Assembly (NCBI GenBank): GCA_963693285.1
Contig: OY848917.1
Location: 26,847,745-26,911,744, forward strand
Direction of reading: 5' to 3'
DNA from: Xestospongia muta
Taxonomy: Eukaryota > Porifera > Demospongiae > Haplosclerida > Petrosiidae
Length of the DNA: 64,000 bases
The notes under the pieces are model-generated. The model was not told where the DNA came from, did no database searches, and saw nothing but the letters and a program-made list of their open reading frames with translations. The translations under genes and the position numbers were made by a program. How positions within the stretch are numbered: the stretch's first letter is position 1; every line of letters begins with the position of its first letter. This document shows, in pieces, positions 9,923 to 44,564 of this stretch.

Positions 9923-11188
9923 ATGGAAGATCCAACTACAAAAACAGTAAGTGTACATAATATATAGCACAATATAGCATAATAAAATATGGTAGAGTAC
10001 ATAATTATAGTAGATAATCTTAATATTCATGTATTTAATTTTGACATGTTTCAGTTTAAGGTCTTACTACCTAAGCTGGGCAAGCACTACAAAGTTGTTG
10101 TCTTTTTTATAACAGCACTAAACACAATGCTTAGTCATTTAATATCCTTACTTCCTATTCCAACACGCAATGCAGCTATTGGATCAGTTACAGTGCTGGT
10201 ATGGTGTTTAAGTATGTACATGTTAGTGTCTCTTATTATGACAATTGTGGAACTTTACGTTACTAGAAAAAAAATCAAACAAGTCAGTAAAATGGTAATA
10301 GCATTAAAAGGTGTAAAAGCTATGTCTTCATTCTCTGGAGGTCTGTTTTACTATTTTGCAGACAATGTTCCTATATTTGTATACAAGTACAGCAAAACAT
10401 TTGGATGTGACAGACGCTGTGAAAATAAATTTGCAACAGTAGGTATTGTCTTTGGTATTACTGCATTGCTTTTTTATACAGCCATTCCTATACTAACGAA
10501 GAGATGGATGAAAATTTATATGCATATGTTAAAAATCACCGATAATAACATTTCAAAAAACAAGACGAAAATGCAAGTAGAAAATTTTCAAGCAGTTTGC
10601 AAAATGACTACTGAAACTTTAGTCCAAATAGTTACTCTTGATACATGGCTAACTCCAATTGCTAATCTCTCACTACAAAGTCCAGAATTTTGTCCTGAAA
10701 GAGAAATTCTAGCAGCCTGGGTGGCATATGTAATATACTTAGTACTTTGGACGGTAATATTTTTTTCTGATGCTTTTAAAGCCATTTTGTTGATAAATAA
10801 GAGGAAGAATGTTGCATTAGTTATAATTTTCATGCTTCTTTTGTGGCTTTCATCAACACTTTTTCCACTTGTCAACAATCAACAACCACTGGGATGTGCT
10901 ACTCATTGTGATTTTTCAGTAAAGAACACAACTATCAATGACATCAACTGCAAAGAAGCAAGCAATCACGGTATACAATTTAGTTTTCTAGTTTTGATAG
11001 AAAGCATTACAGTATTTATGCTAACAATTCTAATTATTAATTTTTTTGTTAAACACAAAGCTTCCTCTAAAGCACAACCGAAAATACCCAGAACTGTAGA
11101 TAATGAGATGGAAGACAAAGAAAGTGCCACTAAATACAAACAATCGGACAAGGATCAACTCAATAATGAGGATGTGGCAATATTATAG
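9923..11188 (+). CDS. Seven-TM membrane protein, tandem copy 1 (2 exons)
   Basis: Exons 9923-9946 (MEDPTTKT, donor GTAAGT) and 10055-11188, phase 0, 385 residues. The start is chosen because ATG-plus-eight-codons, donor and acceptor are kept in all three paralogs, whereas the longer frame through the intron is not. Hydrophobic spans: about 22-42, 49-75, 98-120 (with FADNVP), 133-157, 227-252, 260-281, 313-343. Between TM3 and TM4 is a GC-x4-C loop (FGCDRRCEN). Between TM6 and TM7 is a Cys-rich loop (GCATHC, NTT glycosylation sequon, NDINC), probably disulphide-bonded. The tail is charged (DKDQLNNED). Seven spans are suggestive, but I see no rhodopsin-like DRY or NPxxY motif and do not recognise the family. 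Role unknown; surface receptor is inference. Confidence 0.8.
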
Positions 11189-11510
11189 CTGCAGTTTGAC
11201 TAACATAAGTCTTCCTATGTGTTGTTTGCTTTCTTATTTATTTGTAATAACATTTATAGGTTAATTTTTATTGTAACATGCTCTTTTTACACAATTTTCT
11301 AAGCAATGAGTAATTTAAAGCAACTGTATACAATATGCTATTGTCTCTCTTCCAAAATTAATATCATAAACTCTATAATGATGCATAATATCTAAAGTAT
11401 TGATTTACATATGTAATAATATATGTATCTAATGATTTGTCATATAACAAAGTGTATAGAATTAATACTGTTGTCAAATAAGAAATGTGATTTACTTAAT
11501 TAATATTATA

Positions 11511-11512
<2 letters not shown>

Positions 11513-11557
<45 letters not shown>
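11513..11557. repeat. (TA)n microsatellite
   Basis: About 22 TA dinucleotides in the spacer after copy 1. The homologous position in copy 2 (about 15953-15961) has only about four, so the repeat expanded or contracted after duplication. Confidence 0.95.
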
Positions 11558-11560
<3 letters not shown>

Positions 11561-12986
11561 AACTGCTAACTTTATTATAATGATGGAAAATCTCCTTTTT
11601 TGAGTATACTCAGTCTAAGAAGTCACTAAGAGCTGATTACTTAAATAAACTAAAAAAAGTAATGTTTTCTTTAAGTGAATGTCAAACACACTTGCAATAA
11701 TCCATTATTGTATTATTCTATAACCATCTGTTCATGTATGATTATGTTCCTACTTTTATATTCTCAACTAAGTTTATTTTCTTTATGAGTTTATTAAGTA
11801 AACTATGCAATTATTATTATTCAATTTCTTACTAGGAAATATGTTTGTAATTATGTCATAAATAACAAAGCATCTTTTTAATTGTCTGTTTGTTTAGCAT
11901 ATGTCTTAAATATGCTCAATTACAAAGGTATTATAACATCAAAAATAACAATGACATTCATTTTGTACTAATGAACACTGTGACAGTTACAAAGCTTTTA
12001 ACGTTGTTCACTATTAAAGTAAAAGGTAAATGCCATTCTTCGTTTTAAGTTCAAGACCTATTGAATTCAGGTGCTATGTAGCTTATTCCTATAGGCTGAG
12101 ATATAATGCTGTAAGTGTCAATTTAAATTGAACAGAGTATAAGAGTAAGAACAAGCCAATCCGTGACACGCCTATGTAAAGAAGACAGCTAAGTAATTAA
12201 TTAAGTACATTCATAACTGAGGCACTTAGGTCAGCAAGGGAATTTGGGATTTCCTCCAGTGACATCTGAGAAGACAATCTTCAGGTAGGTATAAAAATGA
12301 ATCTAAGTAGAACAACTGACTATGCATATACCAATAGAAATCAACAAGAAAGATAGGAAAAACAATGTATATATAATTTGTAGGAAAAACAATATATATA
12401 TAATTACATTGATGGTACATCATTTTGTCATTATTATTACAATCATTGGATTAGTGTAAGTTAATAACCAACATAAAAACCCAAAAAAAACAATTGTCTG
12501 TAAAACAAGTTATTTTCTATATTGATTCTAATAAAGAGTGGTAAAATACCATCAAAGAAACAACAATACTACATTAATTGGTAATTTTTAACTATTGTAA
12601 ACCATCCATTTTCCAAACGTTAAAAAGTGAAAATTTTTACTGTGATATTCAGTGCAAAAATTAACAATAGTGTAATATAAATAATTATTTATAATTATTT
12701 TCCTTTCAGATGCATGGATAAGAGAAAAGTCAGACTGTACTATAGAAAGCACAGGTCAATATATTAGATCTAGCTGATGGTCATTGTGACAATTTTATAG
12801 GAACTAGTACTAGTGACTTGGATAATTATTCCATTAAATATTTGATCAGAAATGTACTGATGCACAATGGGATTGCTTGAGCAACCAATCAATGCTTGAA
12901 TAAAACTATATACACCATATACGTCCTGATGTTATGGTATTTCCTCCATGTCCTCTCCCTTCTTGTTGTCATATTCTTACAATTAT

Positions 12987-13027
12987 CTTGTTCAAGAGCA
13001 GATGACAGTCATCTGCTCTTGAACAAG
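12987..13027. repeat. 41-bp perfect palindrome (20-1-20)
   Basis: Two 20-base arms starting CTTGTTCAAGAGCAG, exactly inverted around a single A at 13007. It could extrude a cruciform or fold as an RNA hairpin. It is conserved at 17259-17300 with one arm mismatch and a 2-base spacer, so it predates the tandem duplication. Confidence 0.9.
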
Positions 13028-13403
13028 TTGTATTGGCTCATTGGTGTGTGCATTGGTTCATTTACTATCTTTCTTGTTAATTTATACAACAGACTTGTGT
13101 TTAAAAGGTTCTAGAGTGAAATGAAGGAGTGGTATAGGTATGGAGGATGGTACAGGCCTTCCTCCATTGGAACTTTAAGATATTAACTTGACTTCTATTA
13201 TTTATGTATTTACTAATTTATTTATTAATTTCTCTAAAGTAGTAAAATAAATATATATATAATTAGTAATGTTGTTCTAGTTTGCTCAAATGGGACCAGT
13301 TTTATTCTTGGCCCTTAGTTCTAGTTATTTAAACAGGCTTTTGTTCACCAATGTCGGTAATTAGTACACAACAGTCATTAATGAGATTCATAGTACTTCA
13401 CTG

Positions 13404-13473
13404 CCGTGCCCCACAAGACCCTAAAGACAAAATCGTATGTAGATATAAAAGAAAACCAAGACAACCTCGGATA
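13404..13473 (+). promoter_or_regulatory. Candidate Pol III type 3 promoter, copy 1
   Basis: A TATAAAA at 13444-13450 lies 31 bases before the first base of the terminal stem of the candidate ncRNA, the TATA spacing of U6-type promoters. The preceding block (CCACAAGACCCTAAAGAC and neighbours) is conserved in copy 2 and sits where a proximal sequence element would be expected. TATA and spacing are seen; Pol III use is inference. Confidence 0.4.
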
Positions 13474-13833
13474 GGTTGTGTTGTGGGGCAGCGTCTCCGA
13501 TGCATTTAAATTGACCTCTGAGATGGTTACCAGCATACTATTCGAAAGGCGAACTAGGATACGGCTGGTAGTCTCCCTTTAAACGTGACGAGGTCCGGAG
13601 CATTGTGGTCCCGGTTTAGTAATGACAATGATTTCCTCGAAGCTCGAAACCCAGTACGGCTGGTTGGAAGTTAGGGCGAAGTTCCAGCCAGGATTACCTC
13701 GTCTTCGGACGATGGTTACCAAGCCACGGTGGCGGTCCTAGCTAGCAATAGCAGGGAATCCTGGAGCCTAAGTGGAAGAAGCCTCTGTGGATGTGAGTCA
13801 GAGAACGATCGTTTGGGCAACACAACATTTTTT
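13474..13833 (+). ncRNA. Candidate structured Pol III ncRNA, copy 1
   Basis: A ~355-nt block clearly richer in G+C than its surroundings. Its ends form a 9-bp stem: GTTGTGTTG (13475-13483) with CAACACAAC (13818-13826), followed after one base by T6 (13828-13833), a Pol III-type terminator. Internal hairpins: TCGTC-TTCG-GACGA (13699-13712), a classic cUUCGg tetraloop, with flanking ACC/GGT able to extend it, and GCTA-GCAA-TAGC (13741-13752), a GNRA loop. No long ORF is present. Compared with copy 2 it lacks about ten bases that there form a third hairpin, so this copy may be degenerating. It is not recognisable as tRNA, 5S, U6, SRP, 7SK, RNase P or MRP RNA. An alternative is a SINE: weak A- and B-box-like motifs lie at 13598 and 13641. 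Confidence 0.45.
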
Positions 13834-13894
13834 CTATAATTTTATTCAATAAAACACATAACACTACAATTGTAATAAATCCATCATATATACA

Positions 13895-14113
13895 TTACCT
13901 ATAAAATACATGGTACGAAATGAGTGGAATATTTATTATTGTATTTATAATATGAACCATTTCATTTACATCATGAAAACAATGAATGTATTCAATAGAT
14001 TTTTGCTGTGTATGTACACGTGTTTTGTATCTTGCATAACTATGATAGGAGATTGCCAAAGCAAACAATAACAAGCTAAACCAACACAGCAATCTTGCAT
14101 CTTTAGATGACAA
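13895..14113 (-). CDS. Small ORF with N-terminal membrane helix, divergent from 7TM copy 2
   Basis: A 72-codon frame on the minus strand, starting 220 bp upstream of and divergent from 7TM copy 2. It begins MSSKDARLLCWFSLLLFALA, a likely signal anchor or signal peptide, followed by a His/Tyr-containing tail. A TATATA element lies about 25 bases upstream of the ATG, and an AATAAA follows the stop on the minus strand (near 13845). The frame is intact in the second copy at 18176-18394, with the few differences mostly amino-acid-changing. Copy 1 of the array lacks it because the array boundary falls between. No homolog is recognised; it may be non-coding sequence with a chance frame. Confidence 0.4.
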   Translation of the reverse strand: MSSKDARLLCWFSLLLFALAISYHSYARYKTRVHTQQKSIEYIHCFHDVNEMVHIINTIINIPLISYHVFYR

Positions 14114-14214
14114 GTCGTAATTAATCTATATATAACTTAAAACAACACGTAGTCTATATCTATGGCTACTCTTAATACTTTTGCACCACACCCATTAATG
14201 ATGTAGTTATCAGA

Positions 14215-14222
14215 TGACGTCA
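14215..14222. promoter_or_regulatory. CRE (ATF/CREB-type site), 7TM gene 2
   Basis: TGACGTCA 110 bp upstream of the 7TM ATG and about 100 bp from the divergent small ORF, so it could serve both. The CACCACACCC box is about 25 bp away. Confidence 0.6.
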
Positions 14223-14332
14223 AAGTATCCAGGAAGACTGTTACTTTGGATGTCAACTGCGTAACAAATCTGGTCAACTTCAAAAATAACTGTGTAACAA
14301 GTTCTTTGAAGTCTGGTACTTCGTCGCAAACA

Positions 14333-15624
14333 ATGGAAGATCCAACTATAAAAACAGTAAGTATACGTAATGTATAACATAATATAGCTTAGTACAGTAT
14401 GGTAGAGTATATATACTATATATATAATCTTAATATTCAATATGACATTTGTACTAAACATATATTTAATTTTGATATGCTCTTTTAATGTTTCAGTTTA
14501 AGGTCCATCTACCTAAGCTGGACAAGCACTACAAAATTGTTATCTTTTTTATGACAGCGCTAAACACAATGCTTAGTCATTTAATATCCTTACTTCCTAT
14601 TCCAACACGCAATGCAGCTATTGGATCAGTTACAGTGCTGGTATGGTGTTTAAGTATGTACATGTTAGTGTCTCTTATTATGACAATTGTGGAACTTTAC
14701 GTTACTAGAAAAAAAATCAAACAAGTCAGTAAAATGGTAATAGCATTAAAAGGTGTAAAAGCTATGTCTTCATTCTCTGGAGGTCTGTTTTACTATTTTG
14801 CAGACAATGTTCCTATATTTGTATACAAGTACAGCGAAACATTTGGATGTGACAGACGCTGTGAAAATAAATTTGCAACAGTAGGCATTGTCTTTGGTAT
14901 TACTGCATTGCTTTTTTATACAGCCATTCCTATACTAACAAAGAGATGGATGAAAATTTATATGTTAAAAATCACCGGTAATAACATTTCAAACATCAAG
15001 ACGAAAAAGAAAGTAGAAAATTTTCAAGCAGTTTGCAAAATGACTACAGAAACTTTAGTCCAAATAGTTACTCTTGATACATGGCTAACTCCAATTGCTA
15101 ATCTCTCACTACAAAGTCCAGAATTTTGTCCTGAAAGAGAAATTTTAGCAGCCTGGATGGCATATGTAATATACTTAGTACTTTGGACAGTAATTTTTGT
15201 TTCTGATGCTTTTAAAGCCATTTTGTTGATAAATAAGAGGAAGAATGTTGCACTAGTTATAATTTTCATGCTTCTTTTGTGGTTTTCATCAGCACTTTTC
15301 CCGCTTGTCAACAATCAACAACCACTGGGATGTGCTACTCATTGCGATTTTTCGGTAAAGAACACAACTATCAATGATATCAACTGCAAAGAAACAAGCA
15401 ATCACGGTATACAATTTAGTTTTCTAGTTTTAATAGAAAGCATTACAGTATTTATGCTAACAGTTCTAATTATTAATTTTTTTATCAAACACAAAGCTTC
15501 CTCTAAGGCACAACCAAACATAACCAGAACTGTTCATAATGAGATGGAAGACAAAGCCAGTGCCATTAAATACGAACTATCGGACAAGGATCAACTCAAT
15601 AATGACGATGTGGCAAAATTATAG
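14333..15624 (+). CDS. Seven-TM membrane protein, tandem copy 2 (2 exons)
   Basis: Exons 14333-14356 (MEDPTIKT, GTAAGT) and 14497-15624, phase 0, 383 residues, intron 140 bp. It is very close to copy 1. Differences cluster in the N-terminal PKLDKHYKIVIFFMTAL stretch, the TM4-TM5 loop (two residues shorter: MLKITGNNISNIKTKKK) and the tail (ASAIKYELSDKDQLNNDD). All loop cysteines, the FADNVP segment and the NTT sequon are kept. The frame is intact and looks functional. The promoter region has CRE and CACCC boxes and is shared with a divergent small ORF. Confidence 0.8.
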
Positions 15625-17674
15625 CTGCAGTTTGACTAACATAAGTCTTCCTATGTGTTGTTTGCTTTCTTATTTATTTGTAATAACATTTATTGATTAA
15701 TTTTTATTGTAACATGCTCTTTTTACACAATTTTCTAAGCAATGAGTAATTTCAAGCCACTATATCAAATATGCTATTGTCTCTCTTCCAATGTCAATAT
15801 CATAAACTCTATAAGGATGCATAATATCTAAAGTATTGATTTATAATTAGATATGTAATATATATGTATCTAATGATGTGTCATATAACAAAGTATATAG
15901 AATTAATATTGTTGTCAAATAAGAAATGTGATTTACTTAATTAATATTATAGCATATATATACCTAACTGCTAACTTTATTATAATGATGGAAAATCTCC
16001 TTTTTTGAGTATACTCAGTCTAAGAAGTCACTAAGAGCTGATTACTTAAATAAATAAAGTAATGTTTCCTTTAAGCGAATGTCAATTATTATTATCAAAC
16101 TTCTTACTAGGAAATATGTTTATAATTATGTCATAAATAACAAAGCATCTTTTTAATTGTCTGTTTGTTTAGCATATGTCTTAAATATGCTCAAAGGTAT
16201 TATAACATCAAAAATTAACAATGACAATCATTTTGTATTAATGAACACTGGGACAGTTACAAAGCTTTTAACATTATTCACTATTATATTAAGAAGTAAA
16301 TGTCATTCTTCGCTTTAAGTTCAAGACCTATTGAATTCAGGTGCTATGTAGCTTATTCCTATAGGCTGAGATATAATGCTGTAAGTGTCAATTTAAATTG
16401 AACAGAGTATAAGAGTAAGAACAAGCCAATCCGTGACACGCCTATGTAAAGAAGACAGCTAAGTAATTAATTAAGTACATTCATAACTGAGGCACTTAGG
16501 TCAGCAAGGGAATTTGGGATTTCCTCCAGTGACATCTGAGAAGACAATCTTCAGGTAGGTATAAAAATGAATCTAAGTAGAACAACTGACTATGCATATA
16601 CCAATAGAAATCAACAAGAAAGATAGCCTAGCTCTTGTAGGAAAAACAATGTATATATAATATACATTGATGGTACATCATTTTGTCATTATTATTACAA
16701 TCATTGGATTAGTGTAAGTTAGCCGACATAAAAACCCAAAAAACAATTGTCTGTAAAACAAGTTATTTTCTACATTGATTCTAATAAAGAGTGGTAAAAT
16801 ACCATCAAAGAAACATCAATACTACATTAATTGATAATTTTTAACTAATGGAAATACTGCAACTAATGTAAACCATCCATTTCCAAACGTTAAAAAGTGA
16901 AATGTTTTCCTGTGATATTCTGTGCAAAAATTAACAATAGTGTAATATAAATAATTATTTATAATTATTTTCCTTTCAGATGCTTGGATAAGAGAAAAGT
17001 CAGACTGTACTATAGAAAGCACAGGTCAATATATTAGATTTAGCTGATGGTCATTGTGACAATTTTATAGGAACTAGTACTAGTGACTTGGATAATTATT
17101 CCACTAAATATTTGATCAGAAATGTAATGATATGCACAATAGGATTGCTTGAGCAAGCAATCAATGCTTGAATAAAACTATATACACCATATACGTCCTG
17201 ATGTCATGGTATCTCCCCTATATTTTCTCCCTTCTTGTTGTCATATTCTTACAATTATCTTGTTCAAGACCAGATGACAGGTCATCTGCTCTTGAACAAG
17301 TTGTATTAGTTCATTGGTATATACATTGGTTCAGTTACTATCTTTCTTGTTAATTTATACAACAGACTTGTGTTTAAAGGTTCTAGAGTGAAATGGAGGA
17401 GTGGTATAAGTATGGAGGATGGTGCAGGCCTTCTTCTCTTGGAACTTTAAGATATTAACTTGACTTCTATTATTTATTATTTACTAATTTATTTATTAAT
17501 TGCTCTAAAGTAGTAAAATAAATATATATATTATAATTAGTACTGTTGTTCTAGTTAGCTTAAATGGGACCAGTTTTATTCTTGGCCCTTAGTTTTAGTT
17601 ATTTAAACAGGCTTTGTTCACCGATGTCGGTAATCAGTACATAATAGTCGTTAATGAGATTCATAGTGCTTCTG
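15625..17674. other. Spacer of tandem unit 2
   Basis: Homologous to 11189-13403 with small deletions (for example the TA run and the 11690-11815 stretch). No gene is supported. The frame that is open at 12896-13114 in unit 1 is frameshifted here (17168-17353), which argues against coding. Confidence 0.6.
17259..17300. repeat. 42-bp imperfect palindrome, copy 2
   Basis: Homolog of the 12987-13027 palindrome: 20-base arms with one mismatch (AAGACC against the complement of AAGAGC) around a 2-base spacer at 17279-17280. Confidence 0.85.
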
Positions 17675-17744
17675 CCGCGCCCACCAAGACCCTGAAGACA
17701 AAATCGTACGTAGATATAAAAGAAAACCAAGACAACTTTGGATA
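17675..17744 (+). promoter_or_regulatory. Candidate Pol III type 3 promoter, copy 2
   Basis: TATAAAA at 17715-17721, again exactly 31 bases before the terminal stem (17746), preceded by the conserved CCACCAAGACCCTGAAGAC block. Retention of spacing between copies that differ elsewhere supports a promoter. Confidence 0.4.
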
Positions 17745-18114
17745 GGTTGTGTTGTGGGCCAGCATCTGCGATGCATCTAAATTGACCTCTGAGATGGTTA
17801 CCAGCATACTCGTAAGAGTATCCGAAAGGCAGACTAGGATACGGCTTGTAGTCTCCCTTTAAACGTGAAGAGGTTCAGAGCATTGTGGTCCCGGTTTAGT
17901 AATGACGATGATTTCCCCGAAGCTCGAAACCCAGTACGGCTGGTTTTGAAGTTAGGGCGAAGTTCCAACTAGGATTACCTCGTCTTCGGACGATGGTTAC
18001 CAAGCCATGTTGGCGGTCCTAGCTAGGAATAGCAGGGAATTCTGGAGCCTAAGTGGAAGAAGCCTCAGTGGATGTGAGTCAGAGAACAATCGTTTGGGCA
18101 ACACAACATTTTTT
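17745..18114 (+). ncRNA. Candidate structured Pol III ncRNA, copy 2
   Basis: Same organisation as copy 1: terminal stem GTTGTGTTG (17746-17754) with CAACACAAC (18099-18107), then T6 at 18109-18114. Hairpins: ATACTC-GTAA-GAGTAT (17806-17821), perfect 6-bp stem with GNRA loop; AGACTA/TAGTCT (17831-17836 with 17849-17854); TCGTC-TTCG-GACGA (17980-17993); GCTA-GGAA-TAGC (18022-18033). In the last one the loop differs from copy 1 (GCAA there) but stays GNRA with the stem intact. This copy looks more complete than copy 1. Identity is unknown; SINE origin is the main alternative. Confidence 0.5.
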
Positions 18115-18175: not shown

Positions 18176-18394
18176 TTACCTATAAAATTCATGGTACAAA
18201 ATGAGTGGAATATTTATTATTGTATTTATAATATGAACCATTTCATTCACATCATGAAAACAATGAATGTATTCAATAGATTTTTGCTGTGTATGTACAC
18301 GTGTTTTGTATCTTGTATAACTATGATAGGAGATTGCCAAAGCAAACAATAACAAGCTAAACCAACACAGCAATCTTGCATCTTTAGATGACAA
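18176..18394 (-). CDS. Small ORF with N-terminal membrane helix, divergent from 7TM copy 3
   Basis: A 72-codon paralog of the frame at 13895-14113, with the same start, length and stop and three amino-acid changes (Ala to Thr before RYKT, Ser to Leu and Val to Glu near the C-terminus). Same TATATA upstream and AATAAA downstream. An intact frame in both copies is weak evidence of coding, given how recent the duplication appears. Confidence 0.4.
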   Translation of the reverse strand: MSSKDARLLCWFSLLLFALAISYHSYTRYKTRVHTQQKSIEYIHCFHDVNEMVHIINTIINIPLILYHEFYR

Positions 18395-18612: not shown

Positions 18613-19846
18613 ATGGAAGATCCAACTATAAGAACAGTAAGTATACATAATGTATAACATAATATAGCTTAGTACAGTATGGTAGAGTACATATACTATA
18701 TAATCTTAATATTCAATATGACATTTGTACTAAACATATATTTAATTTTGATATGCTCTTTTAATGTTTCAGTTTAAGGTCCACCTACCTAAGCTGGACA
18801 AGCACTACAAAATTGTTATCTTTTTTATGACAGCGCTAAACACAATGCTTAGTCATTTAATATCCTTACTTCCTATTCCAACACGCAATGCAGCTATTGG
18901 ATCAGTTACAGTGCTGGTATGGTGTTTAAGTATGTACATGTTAGTGTCTCTTATTATGACAATTGTGGAACTTTACGTTACTAGAAAAAAAATCAAACAA
19001 GTCAGTAAAATGGTAATAGCATTAAAAGGTGTAAAAGCTCTGTCTTCATTCTCTGGAGGTCTGTTTTACTATTTTGCAGACAATGTTCCTATATTTGTAT
19101 ACAAGTACAGCAAAACATTTGGATGTGACAGAGATTGTGAAAATAAATTTGCAACAGTAGGCATTGTCTTTGGTATTACTGCATTGCTTTTTTATACAGC
19201 CATTCCTATACTAACAAAAAGATGGATGAAAGTTTATATGTTAAAAATCACCGGTAATAACATTTCAAACATCAAGACGAAAAAGAAAGTAGAAAATTTT
19301 CAAGCAGTTTGCAAAATGACTACTGAAACTTTAGTCCAAATAGTTACTCTTGATACATGGCTAACTCCAATTGCTAATCTCTCACTACAAACTCCAGAAT
19401 TTTGTCCTGAAAGAGAAATCCTAGCAGCCTGGATGGCATATGTAATATATTTAGTACTTTGGACAGTAATTTTTGTTTCTGATTCTTTTAAAGCCATTTT
19501 GTTGATAAATAAGAGGAAGAATGTTGCTTTAGTTATAATTTTCATGCTTCTTTTGTGGCTTTCATCAGCACTTTTCCCGCTTGTCAACAATCAACAACCA
19601 CTGGGATGTGCCAGTCATTGTGATTTTTCAGTGAAGAACACAACTATCAATGACATCAACTGCAAAGAAACAAGCAATCACAGTATACAATTTAGTTTTC
19701 TAGTTTTAATAGAAAGCATAACAGTAATGATGTTAACAGTTTTAATTATTAATTTTTTTGTTAAACACAAAGCTACCTATAAAGCACAGCAACAAACAAA
19801 CAGTACTGTAGAAATTGCAATGAAAGACGAACTCAGTGCCATATAA
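18613..19846 (+). CDS. Seven-TM membrane protein, tandem copy 3 (2 exons)
   Basis: Exons 18613-18636 (MEDPTIRT, GTAAGT) and 18773-19846, phase 0, 365 residues. The membrane part is nearly identical to copies 1 and 2 (TM3-TM4 loop FGCDRDCEN, TM6-TM7 loop GCASHC). The C-terminal tail is different: after KHKATYKAQQQTNS it stops at GCCATATAA, where the paralogs continue with AIKYELSDKDQLNND. The lost ~18 codons are still recognisable downstream (19848-19908), so the tail was shortened by a premature stop. The gene otherwise looks functional. Confidence 0.8.
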
Positions 19847-28466: not shown

Positions 28467-31400
28467 CTAGTCATCAAATAAAAGGGATTCTCGTTTCATA
28501 TCCATTAATTTTGACACTGATGTATCTATTGACACTGGTGTATCCATTGTCACTGATGTATCCAATGACACTAATGTCGAAGTTGGAGTAGGCTTACATT
28601 CAACACCAGGGGATCCTGGATGTTTTATAGCATAGGTGGATAAGGCAAGTTCAATGTTATTAGAAGTTGGCGGAGATTTCTTGAATATATTTTTGACTTT
28701 TGGAATTAGTTGTTGTGAATGAGACTTTAACAGACGATCCCAAACATGATAGAATATAATACCACAGAATATGACAAATGATATTGATACTAAAACAATA
28801 CTTGATGCTTGTCTTTTGGATTTCTCAAAGTCTTGTAGGTTCAAGTGAGCCATCAATATTAGGTTGAGAATGAAAATCAACTCAAGACAAACTAAAGAAA
28901 ATTGTCGATACACTCCTTTTAGAAAGAAATACATAAAAGTAATAGCAATTAATAGAGATGTTAACACAGCTAAGCTTGTTGTAGCCTTTACATCTTGAGA
29001 CACAACTAGTGCTAAGACAACACGAACTAGTAGTAATAATCCAGTCCAAAAACGACACTTGTCCTTATATGGACCTCCATATGCATCAAAAAAAGGTTTC
29101 ATATATGTTGACAACTTTTGGGAGCAACACATGTATTTTGATAGAGGTCCTTCAAATAATGGTATAGTGAAAAGGAAGAAGGTGTATGGAACAATTAGTA
29201 AAATGAGGACAGCCAGTGAGAACAGGAACAATGGTAGATGACAACCTCCTGCATATTGGACATTTGCATCAATGTACCACTTTAGTAATTTGTCATCATT
29301 ACAATGAATATTGGTGTAATGGAGGATTTGGAAGACTGTGCGTATCAGTTTTGTATATGAGAGAAGGATCATAGTCGCTAGTGCTGGGATTACTTGTCTT
29401 CCCACAAGTCGAACCATTTTGCTTGAATATCGTAACAATATTATGATAAGTATTAGAATAAACCAAATGTAGGCTGGAAAGATAAACTGAAGCCATGTCT
29501 TACTACAAGAATCCATACCATCAAAGAAACAAGTTTTAATACCCAGATCAAGATTGATCCAGGAAATGAACTGACTAAGAATTGGAATGGAACTACCAGA
29601 AAAGAAGATGTGTTCATATATTTTGACAACATTAGCATAGAATATAAGTCCATTGATGGTACCCACTGATACAGTTAGATTTAAAAGAATGACGAAAGCT
29701 ACCAGTGCTATACCAGCCACAGCAAATGGAATGATAAGAGCTATGTTGTCATTAGTACATTCTTCACATTGATTGGAACCTAATGTGAGACTGAGCTCTT
29801 TTTTACATTGTCCACAAAGTATTCCAGACCTTTTGTGAAGACATTGTGGATCAGAAGAATTAACTTTAAATTGAATTGTTCCATCATTGCAGTAATCAAA
29901 GGGGCAACTTGGATACACAATAAGACAACCATTTTTATATCCAATCCACATATCGCCATTTCTAGTTATATTTTGAGTGTTGATATTACAAGTTATTGAA
30001 GATAAATTTAATTCAGATCTGCAAACACAAGCGTCTTTTCCCAACATAAACCCAATTGGACAGGACTGAGTTGTAACTTCAATGACTTTAGATAATGAAT
30101 GATCAGTGAATGAATTTTCAAGTTTTGCATATATCTGTGCTGTTTTCAACAAAACATTTGTTTTAAAGGTAATATTGGTACACTTTGCGTTTAGTCTCCT
30201 TTGCTCAGTATATGAACCATCTGATGATGTCAATTTAACCACACCCTCTGTTAAGCCATCTTTTAAACCAACAATAGCTAGTGTTACATTGACAGCAATC
30301 CCTGGTATTGTAGTCATAGTAATATTTGTAATAGAACAGTTTTGTATGTCTGATTCACAAAAACACACTTGAATAGGATCTGATGACACTACTGAATTGC
30401 CTTCCTGTTGAGGGTAGTAAAAAAGGGTTTCAAAATCTGTCTCATTAAAACAATTATCAATATTACCACCATATAGAACGTCACCTGAAATGTCAGCTTT
30501 ATTGTTAGTAAAATATAACATAGCATTAGAATGGTGACGAAAAAAGGAACAAATGTCTGCATCAAGAACTTGTGATACAAAGATTCCACCACCTGACTTA
30601 CTGGCATGATTATTGATAAATGAGATATTTGCTTGAAGATTTAGTAACAACTGGGAAGATTCATATAAAGCAATGCCTCCACCATAAATACCTGAATTGT
30701 TTGTGAATGTACTATGTCCATCAAATGTTAACCAACTATTGAAACATATTAAACCAGTTGTGTTATGATTACTAACTTCATTTTGGTCAAATGTAACATT
30801 AATAATATTGAATAATACCACAGCAGATTGATATACTTTTCCATATACAGACGGTTTATTACTTGCTTTGTTGTATTGAAACGAAACATTTTTAAAATAA
30901 AAGCTAGTTTTTGAAGTAATTTGAAGAGCACGGAGAAACAATCCTGATCCAAGGTATGCAGTATTGTTGTATATATTGCAGTTACCAAACTCAATACTAC
31001 CACCTTCTTCATACAAGTCTATGTACATTCCTCCTCCATCATAATGAGCAGTATTATTGTAAATAGTGCAGTTGCTAAACTCGATAGTACCAACTCCTTC
31101 ATACAAATCAATGTCCACTCCTCCTCCAACACGATGAGCAATATTGTTACATATAGTGCAGATATTGAACTCAATACTAATATTTCCTGCTAACCTAATA
31201 TCCACTCCTCCTCCTTCTCCATTTAACAGTGCAGTATTATTGCATAAAGTACAGCTAAAAAACTCAATACTACCATTTCCTTCATGTGAATCAATATACA
31301 CTCCTCCTCCACTTCCAAAATATAGAACAATATTGTTGTTTATAGTGCAGTTATGAAAGTCAACACTACTCCCATGTGAGTAAATGTACACTCCTCCTCC

Positions 31401-33314
31401 ATATTTCTGTGCAGTATTGCTGTTTATAGTGCAGTTATAAAAGTCAATACTACTCTCATGTGAGTCAATGTACACTCCTCCTCCTCTATACTGAGCAGTA
31501 TTGTTGTATACAGAGCAGTTACAAAACTCAATTCTACAATCCCCTCCATACAAACTAATGGACACTCCTCCTCCATCTCCATATTGCAGAGCAGTGTTGT
31601 TATATATAATGCAGTTACAAAACTCAATTCTACCATTCCCTCTATATGACCGAATGTACACTCCTCCTCCATATGCAAATTTTTGAGCATTATTTTTATA
31701 TATAGTGCAGTTACGAAACTTGATACTACCATTCCCATTCAAATAAACATACACTCCTCCTCCTCCATCATAATAAGCAGTATTGTTGTATATAGTGCAG
31801 TTACGAAACTCAGTTATACTATTCCCTCCATACAAACTAATGAACACTCCTCCTCCACTTCCATATCCCTGAACAATGTTGTTGTATATAGTGCAGTTAT
31901 CAAACTCAATTCGACCATTTCCTCCATATGATCTAATTTGCACACCTCCTCCATATTGTTCACCAGTGTTGTTGTATATAGTACAGTTACGAAACTCAGT
32001 TATACTATTCCCTCCATATGAACTAATGAACACTCCTCCTCCACTTCCATATCGCTGAACAATGTTGTTGTATATAGTGCAGTTATCAAACTCAATTCGA
32101 CCATTTCCTCCATACGATCTAATTTGCACACCTCCTCCATATTGTTCACCAGTGTTGTTGTATATAGTACAGTTACGAAACTTGATACTACCGTTTCCAT
32201 TCAAATAAACATAAACTCCTCCCCCATCATAATAAGCAGTATTGTTGTATACAGTGCAGTTATAAAACTCAATTCTATTATTCCCTCCATATGAACTAAT
32301 GAACACTCCTCCTCCCCTTCCATATTGCTGAACAGTGTTGTTGTATATAGTGCAGTTATCAAACTCAATTCTATTATTCCCTCCATGTGAACTAATGAAC
32401 ACTCCTCCTCCACTTTCATATTGTTCACCAGTGTTGTTGTATATAGTACAGTTACGAAACTCAATACTACCATTTCCACTATACAAATGAATGTACACAC
32501 CTCCTCCATGATACTGAACTGCATTATATAAAAAATTACTATTGTCAATGATTACATTTGTTTTGCTGTCATTTAGATACCATAAGGCCATGCCATATCC
32601 TAAGCCAAGTGTAAAATTTGATTTCACAACATTAACTCTGGTGAGTGTTTTAAATTTTTCATCATACAATATTAATACATTGCCTCCATTGAGAGTCTCA
32701 GGAGCTCCATTGTTAGCAAATGAGGAGTAAGCAATTAGCACACCAAAAGCATTAATGAGACAGAGTCCATAATCTGAACCATTCTGGACTGATACCCATT
32801 CTAATGTGACATTAATGATGTCAACAAAGAGAAAGCTAACATTGGTTTGGAGAGAATATAGTTGGCCAGAATATAGTCGTTGGTCACTGATATTAGTAGC
32901 TAGCCCACAATTTGCTACTGTTAACGATTTTATTACAATATCTACACAGTTCGTAAATTCTATGCCAGCCCTTCTGTTATCACTACACATTATTACTGAT
33001 GTGGATTGCATAATTGTCTCATGGAAGCCTTGTTCTATGTCACCCAGTCCCTGTAGAGTCATATTATTAACACCACTGATCTCCAATGTACCTTGTAGAG
33101 TATGAGTTCCCTCAAGAAAGTAGAAAATTGTATTATCAGTGAAGTAAGATGCATAATCAACAATATAGAAGGAGAGGTTGTGACAAGATAGGTCAGTAAG
33201 AGGACTATTCACTACGTTATTAGTTGCAGAGACACAATACTCAGAAGCAGTAACACATCCACTGTATATATACAGTATAACTGATGTTATATAATAGATA
33301 TGACACCAACTCAT
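28467..33314 (-). CDS. Giant beta-helix (PMP-like) / polytopic membrane protein, unit A
   Basis: A single uninterrupted exon of 1615 codons. Residues 1-25 form a signal peptide (MSWCHIYYITSVILYIYSGC). About 60-140 forms an N-cap region with pectate-lyase-like strands (GVNNMTLQGLGDIEQ, FTNCVDIVIKSLTVANC). About 270-790 is an array of roughly 32-residue coils of the type IEFxNCTIYNNTxxxYGGGVYIxSYGGNG, which resembles the GGxV/FxxN repeats of chlamydial polymorphic membrane proteins and implies a parallel beta-helix. Each coil carries an N-glycosylation sequon. A second spacer ends in a Cys-rich module (CLHKRSGILCGQCKKELSLT, about 1160-1185). About 1188-1525 holds multiple membrane helices, then a Ser/Thr/Asp-rich cytoplasmic tail. 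Probably a surface adhesin or receptor (inference). Intact frame; TATA-like element about 70 bp upstream. Confidence 0.9.
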   Translation of the reverse strand: MSWCHIYYITSVILYIYSGCVTASEYCVSATNNVVNSPLTDLSCHNLSFYIVDYASYFTDNTIFYFLEGTHTLQGTLEISGVNNMTLQGLGDIEQGFHETIMQSTSVIMCSDNRRAGIEFTNCVDIVIKSLTVANCGLATNISDQRLYSGQLYSLQTNVSFLFVDIINVTLEWVSVQNGSDYGLCLINAFGVLIAYSSFANNGAPETLNGGNVLILYDEKFKTLTRVNVVKSNFTLGLGYGMALWYLNDSKTNVIIDNSNFLYNAVQYHGGGVYIHLYSGNGSIEFRNCTIYNNTGEQYESGGGVFISSHGGNNRIEFDNCTIYNNTVQQYGRGGGVFISSYGGNNRIEFYNCTVYNNTAYYDGGGVYVYLNGNGSIKFRNCTIYNNTGEQYGGGVQIRSYGGNGRIEFDNCTIYNNIVQRYGSGGGVFISSYGGNSITEFRNCTIYNNTGEQYGGGVQIRSYGGNGRIEFDNCTIYNNIVQGYGSGGGVFISLYGGNSITEFRNCTIYNNTAYYDGGGGVYVYLNGNGSIKFRNCTIYKNNAQKFAYGGGVYIRSYRGNGRIEFCNCIIYNNTALQYGDGGGVSISLYGGDCRIEFCNCSVYNNTAQYRGGGVYIDSHESSIDFYNCTINSNTAQKYGGGVYIYSHGSSVDFHNCTINNNIVLYFGSGGGVYIDSHEGNGSIEFFSCTLCNNTALLNGEGGGVDIRLAGNISIEFNICTICNNIAHRVGGGVDIDLYEGVGTIEFSNCTIYNNTAHYDGGGMYIDLYEEGGSIEFGNCNIYNNTAYLGSGLFLRALQITSKTSFYFKNVSFQYNKASNKPSVYGKVYQSAVVLFNIINVTFDQNEVSNHNTTGLICFNSWLTFDGHSTFTNNSGIYGGGIALYESSQLLLNLQANISFINNHASKSGGGIFVSQVLDADICSFFRHHSNAMLYFTNNKADISGDVLYGGNIDNCFNETDFETLFYYPQQEGNSVVSSDPIQVCFCESDIQNCSITNITMTTIPGIAVNVTLAIVGLKDGLTEGVVKLTSSDGSYTEQRRLNAKCTNITFKTNVLLKTAQIYAKLENSFTDHSLSKVIEVTTQSCPIGFMLGKDACVCRSELNLSSITCNINTQNITRNGDMWIGYKNGCLIVYPSCPFDYCNDGTIQFKVNSSDPQCLHKRSGILCGQCKKELSLTLGSNQCEECTNDNIALIIPFAVAGIALVAFVILLNLTVSVGTINGLIFYANVVKIYEHIFFSGSSIPILSQFISWINLDLGIKTCFFDGMDSCSKTWLQFIFPAYIWFILILIIILLRYSSKMVRLVGRQVIPALATMILLSYTKLIRTVFQILHYTNIHCNDDKLLKWYIDANVQYAGGCHLPLFLFSLAVLILLIVPYTFFLFTIPLFEGPLSKYMCCSQKLSTYMKPFFDAYGGPYKDKCRFWTGLLLLVRVVLALVVSQDVKATTSLAVLTSLLIAITFMYFFLKGVYRQFSLVCLELIFILNLILMAHLNLQDFEKSKRQASSIVLVSISFVIFCGIIFYHVWDRLLKSHSQQLIPKVKNIFKKSPPTSNNIELALSTYAIKHPGSPGVECKPTPTSTLVSLDTSVTMDTPVSIDTSVSKLMDMKRESLLFDD

Positions 33315-33640
33315 GATGGTAGTGCGTTCAATATTACAGCATTAAATTAATGACAAAATATGCTGTCCTGTTTGCGTCAAATATATATTCGACTTCTAGG
33401 AGATCTTGTTACTTCTATAAATCTTTACGAGAAACCAAGAACAAGCTTAGCTAGTAAAAGCGGATGATGTTCGATATGGATCGCTATTAAATAGTCTACC
33501 ATTTTGTAAAAAAAACACAAGACGTCGATTAAAATACTGCACGTGAGGTTAACATCCCTGCTTGTTTTACAGTCACTGAATGTCATCCAACAAACAACGT
33601 GAATATTTCTATTATTAAATTATGTTGACCCAACCTTTGA
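33315..33640 (-). promoter_or_regulatory. Conserved upstream region of beta-helix gene, unit A
   Basis: Almost identical to 44565-44880 before the unit B gene. On the minus strand it has an ATATATATT box about 70 bases before the ATG (33381-33389) and an E-box CACGTG at 33540-33545. No 5' intron signal is needed because the ATG begins the signal peptide directly. Promoter function is inferred. Confidence 0.4.
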
Positions 33641-39843: not shown

Positions 39844-42800
39844 CTAGTCATCAAACAAAAGGGATTCTCGTTTCATATCCATTAATTTTGATACTGATGT
39901 ATCTATTGACACTGGTGTATCCATTGTCACTGAAGTATCCAATGACACTAATGTATCCATTGTCACTGAAGTATCCAATGACACTAATGTATCCATTGTC
40001 ACTGATGTATCCATTGATACTAATGTCGAAGTTGTAGTATGCTTACATTCAACACCAGGGGATCCTGGATGTTTTATAGCATAGGTGGATAAAGGAAGTT
40101 CGATGTCATTAGAAGATGGCGGAGATTTTTTGAATATATTTTCGACCTTTAGAATTACTTGTTGTGAATGAGACTTTAACAGACGATCCCAAACATGATA
40201 GAATATAATACCACAGAATATGACAAATGATATTGATACTAAAACAATACTTGATGCTTGTCTTTTGGATTTTTCATAGTCTTGTTGTAGGTTCATGTGA
40301 GCCATCAATATTAGGTTGAGAATGAAAATCAACTCAAGACAAACCAAAGAAAACTGTCGATACACTCCTTTTAAAAAGAAATACATAAAATTAATAGCAA
40401 TTAATAGACATGTTAACACAGCTAAGCTTGTTGTAGCCTTCACATCTTGAGACACAACTAGTGATAAGACAACACGAACTAGTAGTAATAATCCAGTCCA
40501 AAAACGACACTTGTCTTTATATGGACCTCCATATGCATCAAAAAAAGGTTTCATATATGTTGACAACTTTTTGGAGCAACACATGTATTTTGATAGAGGT
40601 CCTTCAAATAATGGTATAGTAAAAAGGAAGAAGGTGTATGGAACAATTAGTAAAATGAGGACAGCCAGTGAGAGCAGAAACAATGGTAGATGACAACCTC
40701 CTGCATATTGGACATTTGCATCAATGTACCACTTTACTAATTTGTCATCATTACAATGAATATTGGTGTAATGGAGGATCTGGAAGACTGTGCGTATCAG
40801 TTTTGTATATGAGAGAAGGATCATAGTCGCTAGTGCTGGGATTACTTGTCTTCCCACAAGTCGAACCATTTTGCTTGAATATCGTAACAATATTATGATA
40901 AGTATTAGAATAAACCAAATGTAGGCTGGAAAGATAAACTGAAGCCATGTCTTACTACAAGAATCCATACCATCAAAGAAACAAGTTTTAATACCCAGAT
41001 CAAGATTGATCCAGGAAATGAACTGACTAAGAATTGGAATGGAACTACCAGAAAAGAAGATGTGTTCATATATTTTGACAACATTAGCATAGAATATAAG
41101 TCCATTGATGGTACCCACTGATACAGTTAGATTTAAAAGAATGACGAAAGCTACCAGTGCTATACCAGCCACAGCAAATGGAATGATAAGAGCTATGTTG
41201 TCATTAGTACATTCTTCACATTGATTGGAACCTAATGTGAGACTGAGTCCTTTTTTACATTGTCCACAGAGTATTCCAGACCTTTTGTGAAGACATTGTG
41301 GATCAGGAGAGGTGATTTTAAATTGAATTGTTCCATCATTGCAGTAATCAAAGGGGCAACTTGGATACACAATAAGACAACCATTTTTATATCCAATCCA
41401 CATATCGCCATTTCTAGTTATATTTTGAGTGTTGATATCACAAGTTATTGAAGATAAATTTAATTCAGACCTGCAAACACAAGCGTCTTTTCCCAACATA
41501 AACCCAATTGGACAGGACTGAGTTGTAACTTCAATGACTTTAGATAATGAATGATCAGTGAATGATTTTTCAAGTTTTGCATATATCTGTGTTGTTTTCA
41601 ACAAAACATTTGTTTTAAAGGTAATATTGGTACACTTTGCGTTTAGTCTCCTTTGCTCAGTATATGAACCATCTGATGATGTCAATTTAACCACACCCTC
41701 TGTTAAGCCATCTTTTAAACCAACAATAGCTAGTGTTACATTGACAGCAATCCCTGGTATTGTAGTCATAGTAATATTTGTAATAGAACAGTTTTGTATG
41801 TCTGATTCACAAAAACACACTTGAATAGGATCTGATGACACTACTGAATTGCCTTCCTGTTGAGGGTAGTAAAAAAGGGTTTCAAAATCTGTCTCATTAA
41901 AACAATTATCAATATTACCACCATATAGAACGTCACCTGAAATGTCAGCTTTATTGTTAGTAAAATAAAACATAGCATTAGAATAGTGACGAAAAAAGGA
42001 ACAAATGTCTGCATCAAGAACTTGTGATACAAAGATTCCACCACCTGACTTACTGGCATGATTATTGATAAATGAGATATTTGCTTGAAGATTTAGTAAC
42101 AACTGGGAAGATTCATATAAAGCAATGCCTCCACCATAAATACCTGAATTGTTTGTGAATGTACTATGTCCATCAAATGTTAACCAACTATTGAAACATA
42201 TTAAACCAGTTGTGTTATGATTACTAACTTCATTTTGGTCAAATGTAACATTAATAATATTGAATAATACCACAGCAGATTGATATACTTTTCCATATAC
42301 AGACGGTTTATTACTTGCCTTGTTGTATTGAAACGAAACATTTTTAAAATAAAAGCTAGTTTTTGAAGTAATTTGAAGAGCACGGAGAAACAGTCCTGAT
42401 CCAAGGTATGCAGTATTGTTGTATATATTGCAGTTACCAAACTCAATACTACCACCTTCTTCATACAAGTCTATGTACACTCCTCCTCCATCATAATGAG
42501 CAGTATTATTGTAAATAGTGCAGTTGCTAAACTCGATAGTACCAACTCCTTCATACAAATCAATGTCCACTCCTCCTCCAACACGATGAGCAATATTGTT
42601 ACATATAGTGCAGATATTGAACTCAATACTAATATTTCCTGCTAACCTAATATCCACTCCTCCTCCTTCTCCATTTAACAGTGCAGTATTATTGCATAAA
42701 GTACAGCTAAAAAACTCAATACTACCATTTCCTACATATGAATCAATGTACACTCCTCCTCCACTTCCAAAATATAGAACAATATTGTTGTTTATAGTGC

Positions 42801-44564
42801 AGTTATGAAAGTCAACACTACTCCCATGTGAGTAAATGTACACTCCTCCTCCATATTTCTGTGCAGTATTGCTGTTTATAGTGCAGTTATAAAAGTCAAT
42901 ACTACTCTCATGTGAGTCAATGTACACTCCTCCTCCTCTATACTGAGCAGTATTGTTGTATACAGAGCAGTTACAAAACTCAATTCTACAATCCCCTCCA
43001 TACAAACTAATGGACACTCCTCCTCCATCTCCATATTGCAGAGCAGTGTTGTTGTATATAGTACAGTTACAAAACTTGATACTACCATTCCCATTCAAAT
43101 AAATATACACTCCTCCTCCATCATAATAAGCAGTATTGTTTATATAGTGCAGTTACGAAACTCAGTTCTACTATTCCCTCCATACGAACTAATGGACACT
43201 CCTCCTCCACTTCCATATCGCTGAACAATGTTGTTGTATATAGTGCAGTTATCAAACTCAATTCGACCATTTCCTCCATACGATCTAATTTGCACACCTC
43301 CTCCATATTGTTTACCAGTGTTGTTGTATATAGTACAGTTACGAAACTTGATACTACCGTTTCCATTCAAATAAACACAAACTCCTCCCCCATCATAATA
43401 AGCAGTATTGTTGTATACAGTGCAGTTATAAAACTCAATTCTATTATTCCCTCCATATGAACTAATGAACACTCCTCCTCCTCTTCCATATCGCCGAATA
43501 ATGTTGTTGTATATAGTGCAGTTGTCAAACTCAATTCTATTATTCCCTCCATATGAACTAATGAACACTCCTCCTCCTCTTCCATATCGCCGAATAATGT
43601 TGTTGTATATAGTGCAGTTGTCAAACTCAATTCTATTATTCCCTCCATATGAACTAATGAACACTCCTCCTCCACTTTCATATTGTTCACCAGTGTTGTT
43701 GTATATAGTACAGTTACGAAACTCAATACTACCATTTCCACTATACAAACGAATGTACACTCCTCCTCCATGATACAGAACTGCATTATATAAAAAATTA
43801 CTATTGTCAATGATCATATATGCTTTGCTGTCATTTAGATACCATAAAGCCATGCCATATCCTAAGCCAAGTGTAAAATTTGATTTCACAACATTAACTT
43901 TGGTGAGTGTTTCAAATTTTTCATCATACAATATTAATACATTGCCTCCATTGAGAGTCTCAGGAGCTCCATTGTTAGCAAATGAGGAGTAAGCAATTAG
44001 TACACCAAAAGCATTAATGAGACAGAGTCCATAATCTGAACCATTCTGGACTGATACCCATTCTAATGTGATATTAATGATGTCAACAAAGAGAAAGCTA
44101 ACATTGATTTGGACAGAATATAGTTGTCGTTGGTCACTGATATTAGCATCTAGCCCACAATTTGCTACTGTTAATGATTTTATTACAATATCTACACAGT
44201 TCGTAAATTCTATGCCAGCCCTTCTGTTATCACTACACATTATTACTGATGTGGATTGCATAATTGTCTCATGGAAGCCTTGTTCTATGTCACCCAGTCC
44301 CTGTAGAGTTATATTGTTAACACCACTGATTACCAATGTATCTTGTAGAGTATGAGTTCCCTCAAGAAAGTAGAAAATTGTATTATCAGTGAAGTAAGAT
44401 GCATAATCAACAATATAAAAGGAGAGGTTGTGACAAGGTAGGTCAGTAGGAGGACTATTCACTACGTTATTAGTTGCAGAGACACAATACTCAGAAGCAG
44501 TAACACATCCACTGTATATATTCAGTATAACTGATGTTATATAATAGATATGACACCAACTCAT
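39844..44564 (-). pseudogene. Beta-helix membrane gene, unit B, split by one-base deletion
   Basis: Paralog of 28467-33314 with the same signal peptide and flanks. The frame is open from the ATG (44562-44564) to about 43140, then from 43110 to the stop at 39844 in another frame. At the break, GCAGTATTGTTTATATAG stands where unit A has GTATTGTTGTATATAG, i.e. one G is missing inside an IYNNTA codon run. Everything else is intact over about 1,570 codons, so the lesion is recent, polymorphic, or an assembly error in a repetitive region. The coil number differs from unit A: one 96-bp coil is exactly duplicated (about 43521-43712) and several unit A coils are absent. The tail carries an expanded 12-residue SLDTSVTMDTLV repeat. 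Confidence 0.75.
39894..40020 (-). repeat. 36-bp minisatellite in tail coding region
   Basis: A 36-bp unit encoding 12 residues alternating S/T-M/L-D-T-S/L-V. It occurs about three times here, against about one and a half at the homologous site in unit A (28515-28575). It stays in frame and alters the cytoplasmic tail length. Confidence 0.8.

Follow-up and report, generated by a model that had tools for sequence, protein, structure and literature searches.

To our knowledge, few structured RNAs with promoters of the U6 type have been described in animals. 7SK RNA belongs to the Pol III type 3 class, ends in a U-run, needs a GAUC-GAUC helix, and is similar in length to the RNA family reported below. 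Multi-copy snRNA genes are kept constant either by selection or by gene conversion limited to the unit of the gene. A further point of comparison is RUF6, a family of Pol III ncRNAs with internal A and B boxes, to which a study on Plasmodium ascribes the regulation of var genes (PMC9670795).

Here, we describe a family of RNA genes in the genome of a sponge, Xestospongia muta (158-Mb assembly, 28 contigs). Two copies occur in the window, by which we mean the whole stretch of DNA analysed (C1:26847745-26911744, G000; 64 kb). Judging from sequence comparison, we regard it as quite likely that these are structured RNA genes of the Pol III type 3 class matching no Rfam family, and that their products act in trans.

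Two RNA copies in the window

The original prediction had pointed to a TATA box, a terminal stem, a T6 run, cUUCGg and GNRA hairpins and a G+C-richer island, and all of these are present. In copy 1, TATAAAA (13444-13450) is followed 31 bases further on by GTTGTGTTG (13475-13483), while CAACACAAC (13818-13826) precedes one A and the T6 run (13828-13833). The cUUCGg hairpin (13698-13712) and a GCAA hairpin of the GNRA type (13741-13752) lie between them, and the GC fraction is 0.42-0.51 in 300-base windows starting at 13300-13600 and 0.20-0.36 in those starting at 11000-13200 and 13700-16200. Copy 2 lies ~4.27-4.28 kb downstream, with its TATA box at 17715 and a T-run reaching 18114. The features, in order of position, are the following:

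12404..12644, minus strand: left part of the group-1 transposon, inverted at the window locus; left terminus at 12618-12644, minus strand
13064..14010, plus strand: main part of the group-1 transposon, carrying copy 1; right end TTTTTGCTGTG at 14000-14010 (copy 2: 18281-18291)
13378..13391 (copy 2: 17651-17664), plus strand: DSE-like element TTAATGAGATTCAT, part of the upstream stretch conserved in group 2
13409..13434 (copy 2: 17680-17705), plus strand: PSE, aligning with the PSE of U6 genes of the same genome
13444..13450 (copy 2: from 17715), plus strand: TATA box TATAAAA, spaced to +1 as in U6
13474..13833, plus strand: putative RNA copy 1 with T6 terminator; +1 at ~13473-13474 from the U6 alignment
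14476..15624 (others 9986-11188 and 18752-19846), plus strand: receptor-like ORFs of the duplicated unit, outside the RNA gene
17745..18114, plus strand: putative RNA copy 2 with T6 terminator; keeps the GUAA-loop hairpin lost in copy 1

That hairpin (13533-13549) is shortened or lost in copy 1 and retained in copy 2 at 17806-17821; copy 1 is probably a decayed copy. An 18-mer of the RNA, allowing up to 2 mismatches, occurs only twice in the 64-kb window, so the first receptor-like ORF unit is without an RNA copy. The RNA gene had been proposed to belong to an array of 7TM receptor genes. Both copies were indeed duplicated together with receptor-like ORFs, each with seven hydrophobic windows, two of which overlap; a tie of the RNA to receptors as such is not supported, and, a Pfam search of these ORFs having given no match, the 7TM assignment is not established. 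The second ORF has seven unnamed protein relatives. In a second duplicated block of the window, two further long ORFs on the minus strand (28467-33341 and 39844-43152) consist of tandem units of ~90-96 bases that make up right-handed beta-helix repeats (Pfam PF13229).

Promoter and terminator

The U6-type Pol III layout suggested for the window is borne out by the U6 genes of the same genome, whose promoters have the PSE, the TATA box and the spacing to the start in common with the RNA family. Compared with the promoter of group 2 (defined below), the U6 promoters score 28, 35 and 46, whereas 17782 background stretches taken from the window reach at most 20. The best match, the U6 promoter of L051, agrees at 55 of 64 positions from the PSE to +1, with equal spacing to +1. 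The RNase P and MRP promoters, with scores of 13 and 8 (556 and 14426 of the 17782 background stretches as high, respectively), are not distinguished from the background, though the RNase P gene, despite its weak overall score, has a PSE core like that of the RNA family. Two details were noted by eye: within CCCCACAAGAGCATGAAG, the PSE of copy 1 departs from the group-2 version in three places, and a motif similar to TTAATGAGATTCAT, which we take to be a POU/Oct site, stands in reverse upstream of U6 in L049.

This L049 is the full U6 copy of the genome; L050 and L051 are truncated after position 68, and two fragments fall below the cut-off. Both truncated copies (L050 at C2:4440861, L051 at C15:4991177) have full-looking promoters, and ~5.5 kb beyond them lie weak matches to the 3′ part of U6 (L052 and L053), as if one segment had been duplicated.

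A PSE pattern that was derived from U6, RNase P and group 2, with the main group-2 form excluded, occurs at 15 genome sites (reversed control, 0); because U6 and RNase P went into its design, finding them again adds no independent support. The 12 loci fetched comprise nine whole, partial or decayed RNA copies, one U6, one RNase P and L109, and an Rfam search of seven PSE loci gave no match. At L109:1500-1720 (C14:948553), a U6-like PSE and TATA box are followed neither by this RNA nor by an Rfam match, and they may belong to another Pol III gene or to a decayed one.

T-runs of 8-12 and a length of 351-366 nt from +1 to the T-run were measured in 21 of 54 copies; both window copies end in T6. 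A search of 76 copies for exact A boxes, and for B boxes with up to 1 mismatch, found neither, which by those patterns leaves no internal Pol III promoter. The RNA family thus has the promoter and terminator that would place it in the Pol III type 3 (U6) class.

Copies in the genome and their carrier transposon

An exact internal 18-mer of the RNA has at least 138 copies in the genome (at least 100 of these sites given individually by position) and none for the reversed control. From 332 candidates, 40 copies were scored, namely the window copy and 39 long matches that are 87-93% identical; they fall into 25 copies of group 1, 14 of group 2 and the intermediate L031. The promoter has been copied along with the RNA in nearly all cases, being deleted or diverged in, for example, L054, L055, L060 and L078.

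Eight short matches (C8:7902411, C9:6343260, C11:5614795, C11:5769716, C13:194120, C13:428650, C13:429125 and C14:5431747) are pieces of the 3′ part of the RNA, each within ~0.7 kb downstream of a full copy and in the same orientation. At L098:1500-1610, an internal deletion has left an intact-looking promoter directly in front of the terminal portion of the RNA with its T-run, and a very short Pol III transcript would be expected. In L107, a PSE and a TATA box precede a brief sequence resembling U6, beyond which lie decayed fragments of the RNA; the locus may be a hybrid of U6 and this RNA.

The group-1 copies, both of those in the window among them, are carried by a dispersed DNA transposon of ~1.2 kb with sharp CACAG ends. 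Its termini, CACAGGGAAAA and TTTTTGCTGTG, form a short, imperfect terminal repeat, and 3-bp target duplications flank 9 of the 16 copies in which both ends are readable (shuffled mean 0.8, maximum 4 in 2000), none of the 16 having duplications of 4 bp or more. Constant inverted termini and fixed-length target duplications identify the carrier as a DNA transposon, presumably a non-autonomous one of the CACTA-like (CMC) superfamily. Divergence from the consensus in 22 group-1 copies is 3.3% for the RNA, 5.5% for the promoter and 4.0-5.3% for the flanks. These values differ only mildly, so that group-1 copies look like passengers; the RNA is slightly more conserved than the flanks, so their passenger status is not certain. 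The window copy, put forward as the gene of interest, thus turns out to be carried by a dispersed transposon, and the window copies are probably passengers and a poor basis for judging the RNA family.

Dispersed copies with target duplications had been named beforehand as the mark of a SINE. Group 1 has both, in a DNA transposon and not a SINE; group 2 shows no fixed ends. That the family spread by reverse transcription in the manner of a SINE would fit the many dispersed copies and the target duplications of group 1, but an external promoter was copied with the RNA, the copies do not start at the 5′ end of the transcript, the ends of group 1 belong to a DNA transposon and lie outside the RNA, and internal A/B boxes are found in 0 of 76 copies by the patterns used. 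We therefore hold a SINE to be extremely improbable.

A conserved unit between diverging flanks

The 14 long group-2 loci have promoters and RNAs that can be aligned, and flanks that are mostly unlike or diverged. What they have in common is a unit made of the upstream promoter, the RNA and the T-run. Across the 91 pairs of these loci, similarity commonly ends at about -111 to -130 and at +363 to +383, numbered from GGCCAGCG near the 5′ end of the RNA. This span reaches from the DSE-like element to just beyond the T-run, and some pairs extend further on one side.

Fourteen pairs were compared by region. Nine of them have RNAs that are 96-98% identical and 3′ flanks that are 64-79% identical; in two more (L037 with L036 and with L041), the RNAs are 99.7-100% identical and the flank, only partly homologous, 63%; the remaining three are close pairs with flanks at least 93% identical. 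Such a constant RNA suggests purifying selection, or else gene conversion confined to the unit. Given the three pairs with similar flanks, some of this apparent conservation might instead come from gene conversion or from recent amplification.

Alternatively, group 2 might be a repeat that moves in its own right, either a second transposon or a selfish element driven by Pol III, whose constancy would reflect recent spread and not function. The 138 or more exact copies of the 18-mer agree with it, as do the proof from group 1 that a transposon can carry the unit and the failure to find a homolog outside the genome, in bacterial, archaeal and viral contigs. Against this, the RNA varies much less than the flank that can still be aligned in the same pairs, where a single insertion should have led to even divergence; the points where similarity ends differ from pair to pair; and the promoter stands upstream of the transcript, so that copying through RNA would have lost it. 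We consider a mobile group 2 unlikely and prefer a constrained, unit-sized RNA gene.

Predicted structure

The folding energies are weak: copy 1 has a z of -1.48, with 8 of 100 shuffles equally good (the opposite strand, at -1.33, being of similar stability for its composition), the group-2 consensus -2.4 (its reverse complement, -1.9), and L044 -1.7. The case therefore rests on comparison and not on the fold. The consensus is predicted to fold into a terminal stem, an extended arm on the 5′ side and, towards the 3′ end, a cluster of UUCG- and GCAA-capped hairpins closed by a GGAUU/AAUCC helix. On one retained stem the tetraloop is exchanged, with UUCG in 51, GUAA in 24 and UUCC in one of 76 matched hairpins, a count that misses altered stems (window copy 1, L018, L023, L026 and L033 among them) and double-counts two or more loci (window copy 2/L011 and L081/L108). 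This exchange of UUCG and GUAA supports the predicted fold.

Covariation, proposed as a check in the original prediction, appeared at one terminal pair (G-C/U-A) when the copies of this same genome were aligned; the alignment holds 76 of 80 copies (L038, L054, L055 and L060 dropped), 69 of them distinct, and also supplied the structure against which it was tested. Covariation is scarce because the copies are too alike. The ratio of pair-keeping to pair-breaking changes gives p 0.026 for group 2 and p 0.14 for group 1, with L031 left out and with the divergent L078 and L092 among the 51 non-group-1 sequences, and is no more than suggestive.

Candidate identities

At gathering scores, no Rfam family (RF00026, RF00009, RF00030, RF00017 and RF00100 included) matches the window, and a group-2 copy gave only three weak, chance-like matches (E 2.4-7.5). 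Together with the strong constraint on the RNA in group 2, this agrees with the proposal of a structured RNA outside the known families. U6 snRNA was rejected, with no match to RF00026 and with U6 at other loci of the genome, as were RNase P, RNase MRP and SRP RNAs, which have no match to RF00009, RF00030 or RF00017 here and are each found once elsewhere in the genome. Exact 19-22-mers had no match in collections of bacterial, archaeal and viral contigs, which, given their content, says little about homologs. A literature search, limited to the texts available, found no such RNA family in sponges, which is no proof of absence.

Sponge telomerase RNAs have an H/ACA domain, according to one study (PMC8480181), and another describes telomerase RNAs of the Pol III type 3 class in Hymenoptera (PMC9841428), so that the promoter alone would not exclude a telomerase RNA. 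This candidate was rejected on its template: neither CCCTAA nor CTAACCC occurs in 76 copies, a TTAGGG repeat being assumed.

A divergent 7SK RNA, binding HEXIM and controlling P-TEFb, would be compatible with the Pol III type 3 promoter, the length and the U-run. HEXIM is encoded in the genome (C15:2092706, 114 bits), and the Rfam 7SK model finds no match there, with no positive control in the lineage. However, Rfam recognises 7SK neither in the window nor in the group-2 copy, and the paired GAUC motifs are missing: GATC/GAUC occurs once in 51 of 52 non-group-1 copies and is absent from one, and, among 24 group-1 copies, occurs once in 17, twice in two and not at all in five. So high a copy number would also be unusual for 7SK. 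A 7SK identity is quite improbable; a HEXIM without a recognised 7SK in the same genome nonetheless gives one version of the question a concrete form.

Location near contig ends

The exact PSE of group 2 occurs at 85 genome sites (reversed control, 0), not all of them in group 2, since C1:1304349 is the group-1 copy L023. On contigs C3-C15, 56 of 70 sites are no more than 500 kb from a contig end, against an expectation of 13%; the statistic assumes that the sites are independent of one another, and tandem neighbours violate this. At least one site is present at 21 of the 26 ends of these contigs. The figure for C1-C2 is 2 of 15. C6 has no exact PSE site, and 18-mer copies near its ends are among the matches listed. 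Sites point towards the contig end in 32 cases and away from it in 24. All these counts equate contig ends with chromosome ends.

Such a location raises the idea of a trans regulator of gene families at chromosome ends, with the logic of RUF6, a Pol III ncRNA family for which control of var genes is reported (PMC9670795). The 56 of 70 promoter sites near contig ends and the 21 of 26 ends occupied speak for it. Yet, among 14 group-2 loci compared with ~2 kb of flank, a recurring ORF family next to the RNA is confined to one C12 group; Pfam domains occur in only 2 of 8 neighbours; and C1-C2 depart from the pattern. Moreover, subtelomeres gather duplicates of many kinds. In the Rfam search of the group-2 copy, RUF6 had a sole match at E 7.5. 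We judge this role improbable. Only slightly less doubtful is a broader view: a new animal class of Pol III RNA, located near almost every chromosome end, kept nearly constant by selection, controlling the expression of subtelomeric families in trans and spread into chromosome interiors by a transposon.

A proposed history and comparison with known systems

Under our preferred reading of a trans-acting Pol III type 3 RNA, the genes would produce transcripts of ~351-366 nt before the U-run, with a stem joining the 5′ and 3′ ends, several hairpins and a U end. Most copies would sit near chromosome ends, where selection or unit-limited gene conversion may hold the RNA nearly constant as the flanks diverge. 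A non-autonomous DNA transposon (group 1) would have captured one such gene and then spread it, and one insertion in the window would have been rearranged at its left end and duplicated with a receptor-like gene. Like U6, 7SK or RNase P RNA, the transcript could form the core of a stable RNP that works in trans. Matching no Rfam family, and conserved in tens of copies that cluster towards contig ends, it offers a testable RNP candidate in an early-branching animal, as well as a case in which a whole predicted Pol III RNA gene, promoter included, has been moved by a DNA transposon.

Among known systems, U6 snRNA genes have the upstream PSE and TATA box, the spacing to +1 and the T-run terminator in common with the RNA family, but differ in sequence, length and fold, U6 being a separate gene here. 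RNase P RNA is likewise a separate gene, with a like PSE core and a weak overall promoter score. The family resembles 7SK in promoter class, length and U-run, and differs in having a single GAUC and no Rfam match. Like RUF6, it would be a multi-copy Pol III ncRNA, GC-rich within an AT-rich genome; RUF6 has internal A and B boxes, in contrast to the upstream promoter found here and the absence of such boxes by pattern. Finally, group 1 resembles CACTA-like (CMC) transposons in its CAC...GTG termini and in the 3-bp duplication of its target sites (9 of 16), and differs from them in bearing an RNA gene of the U6 type.
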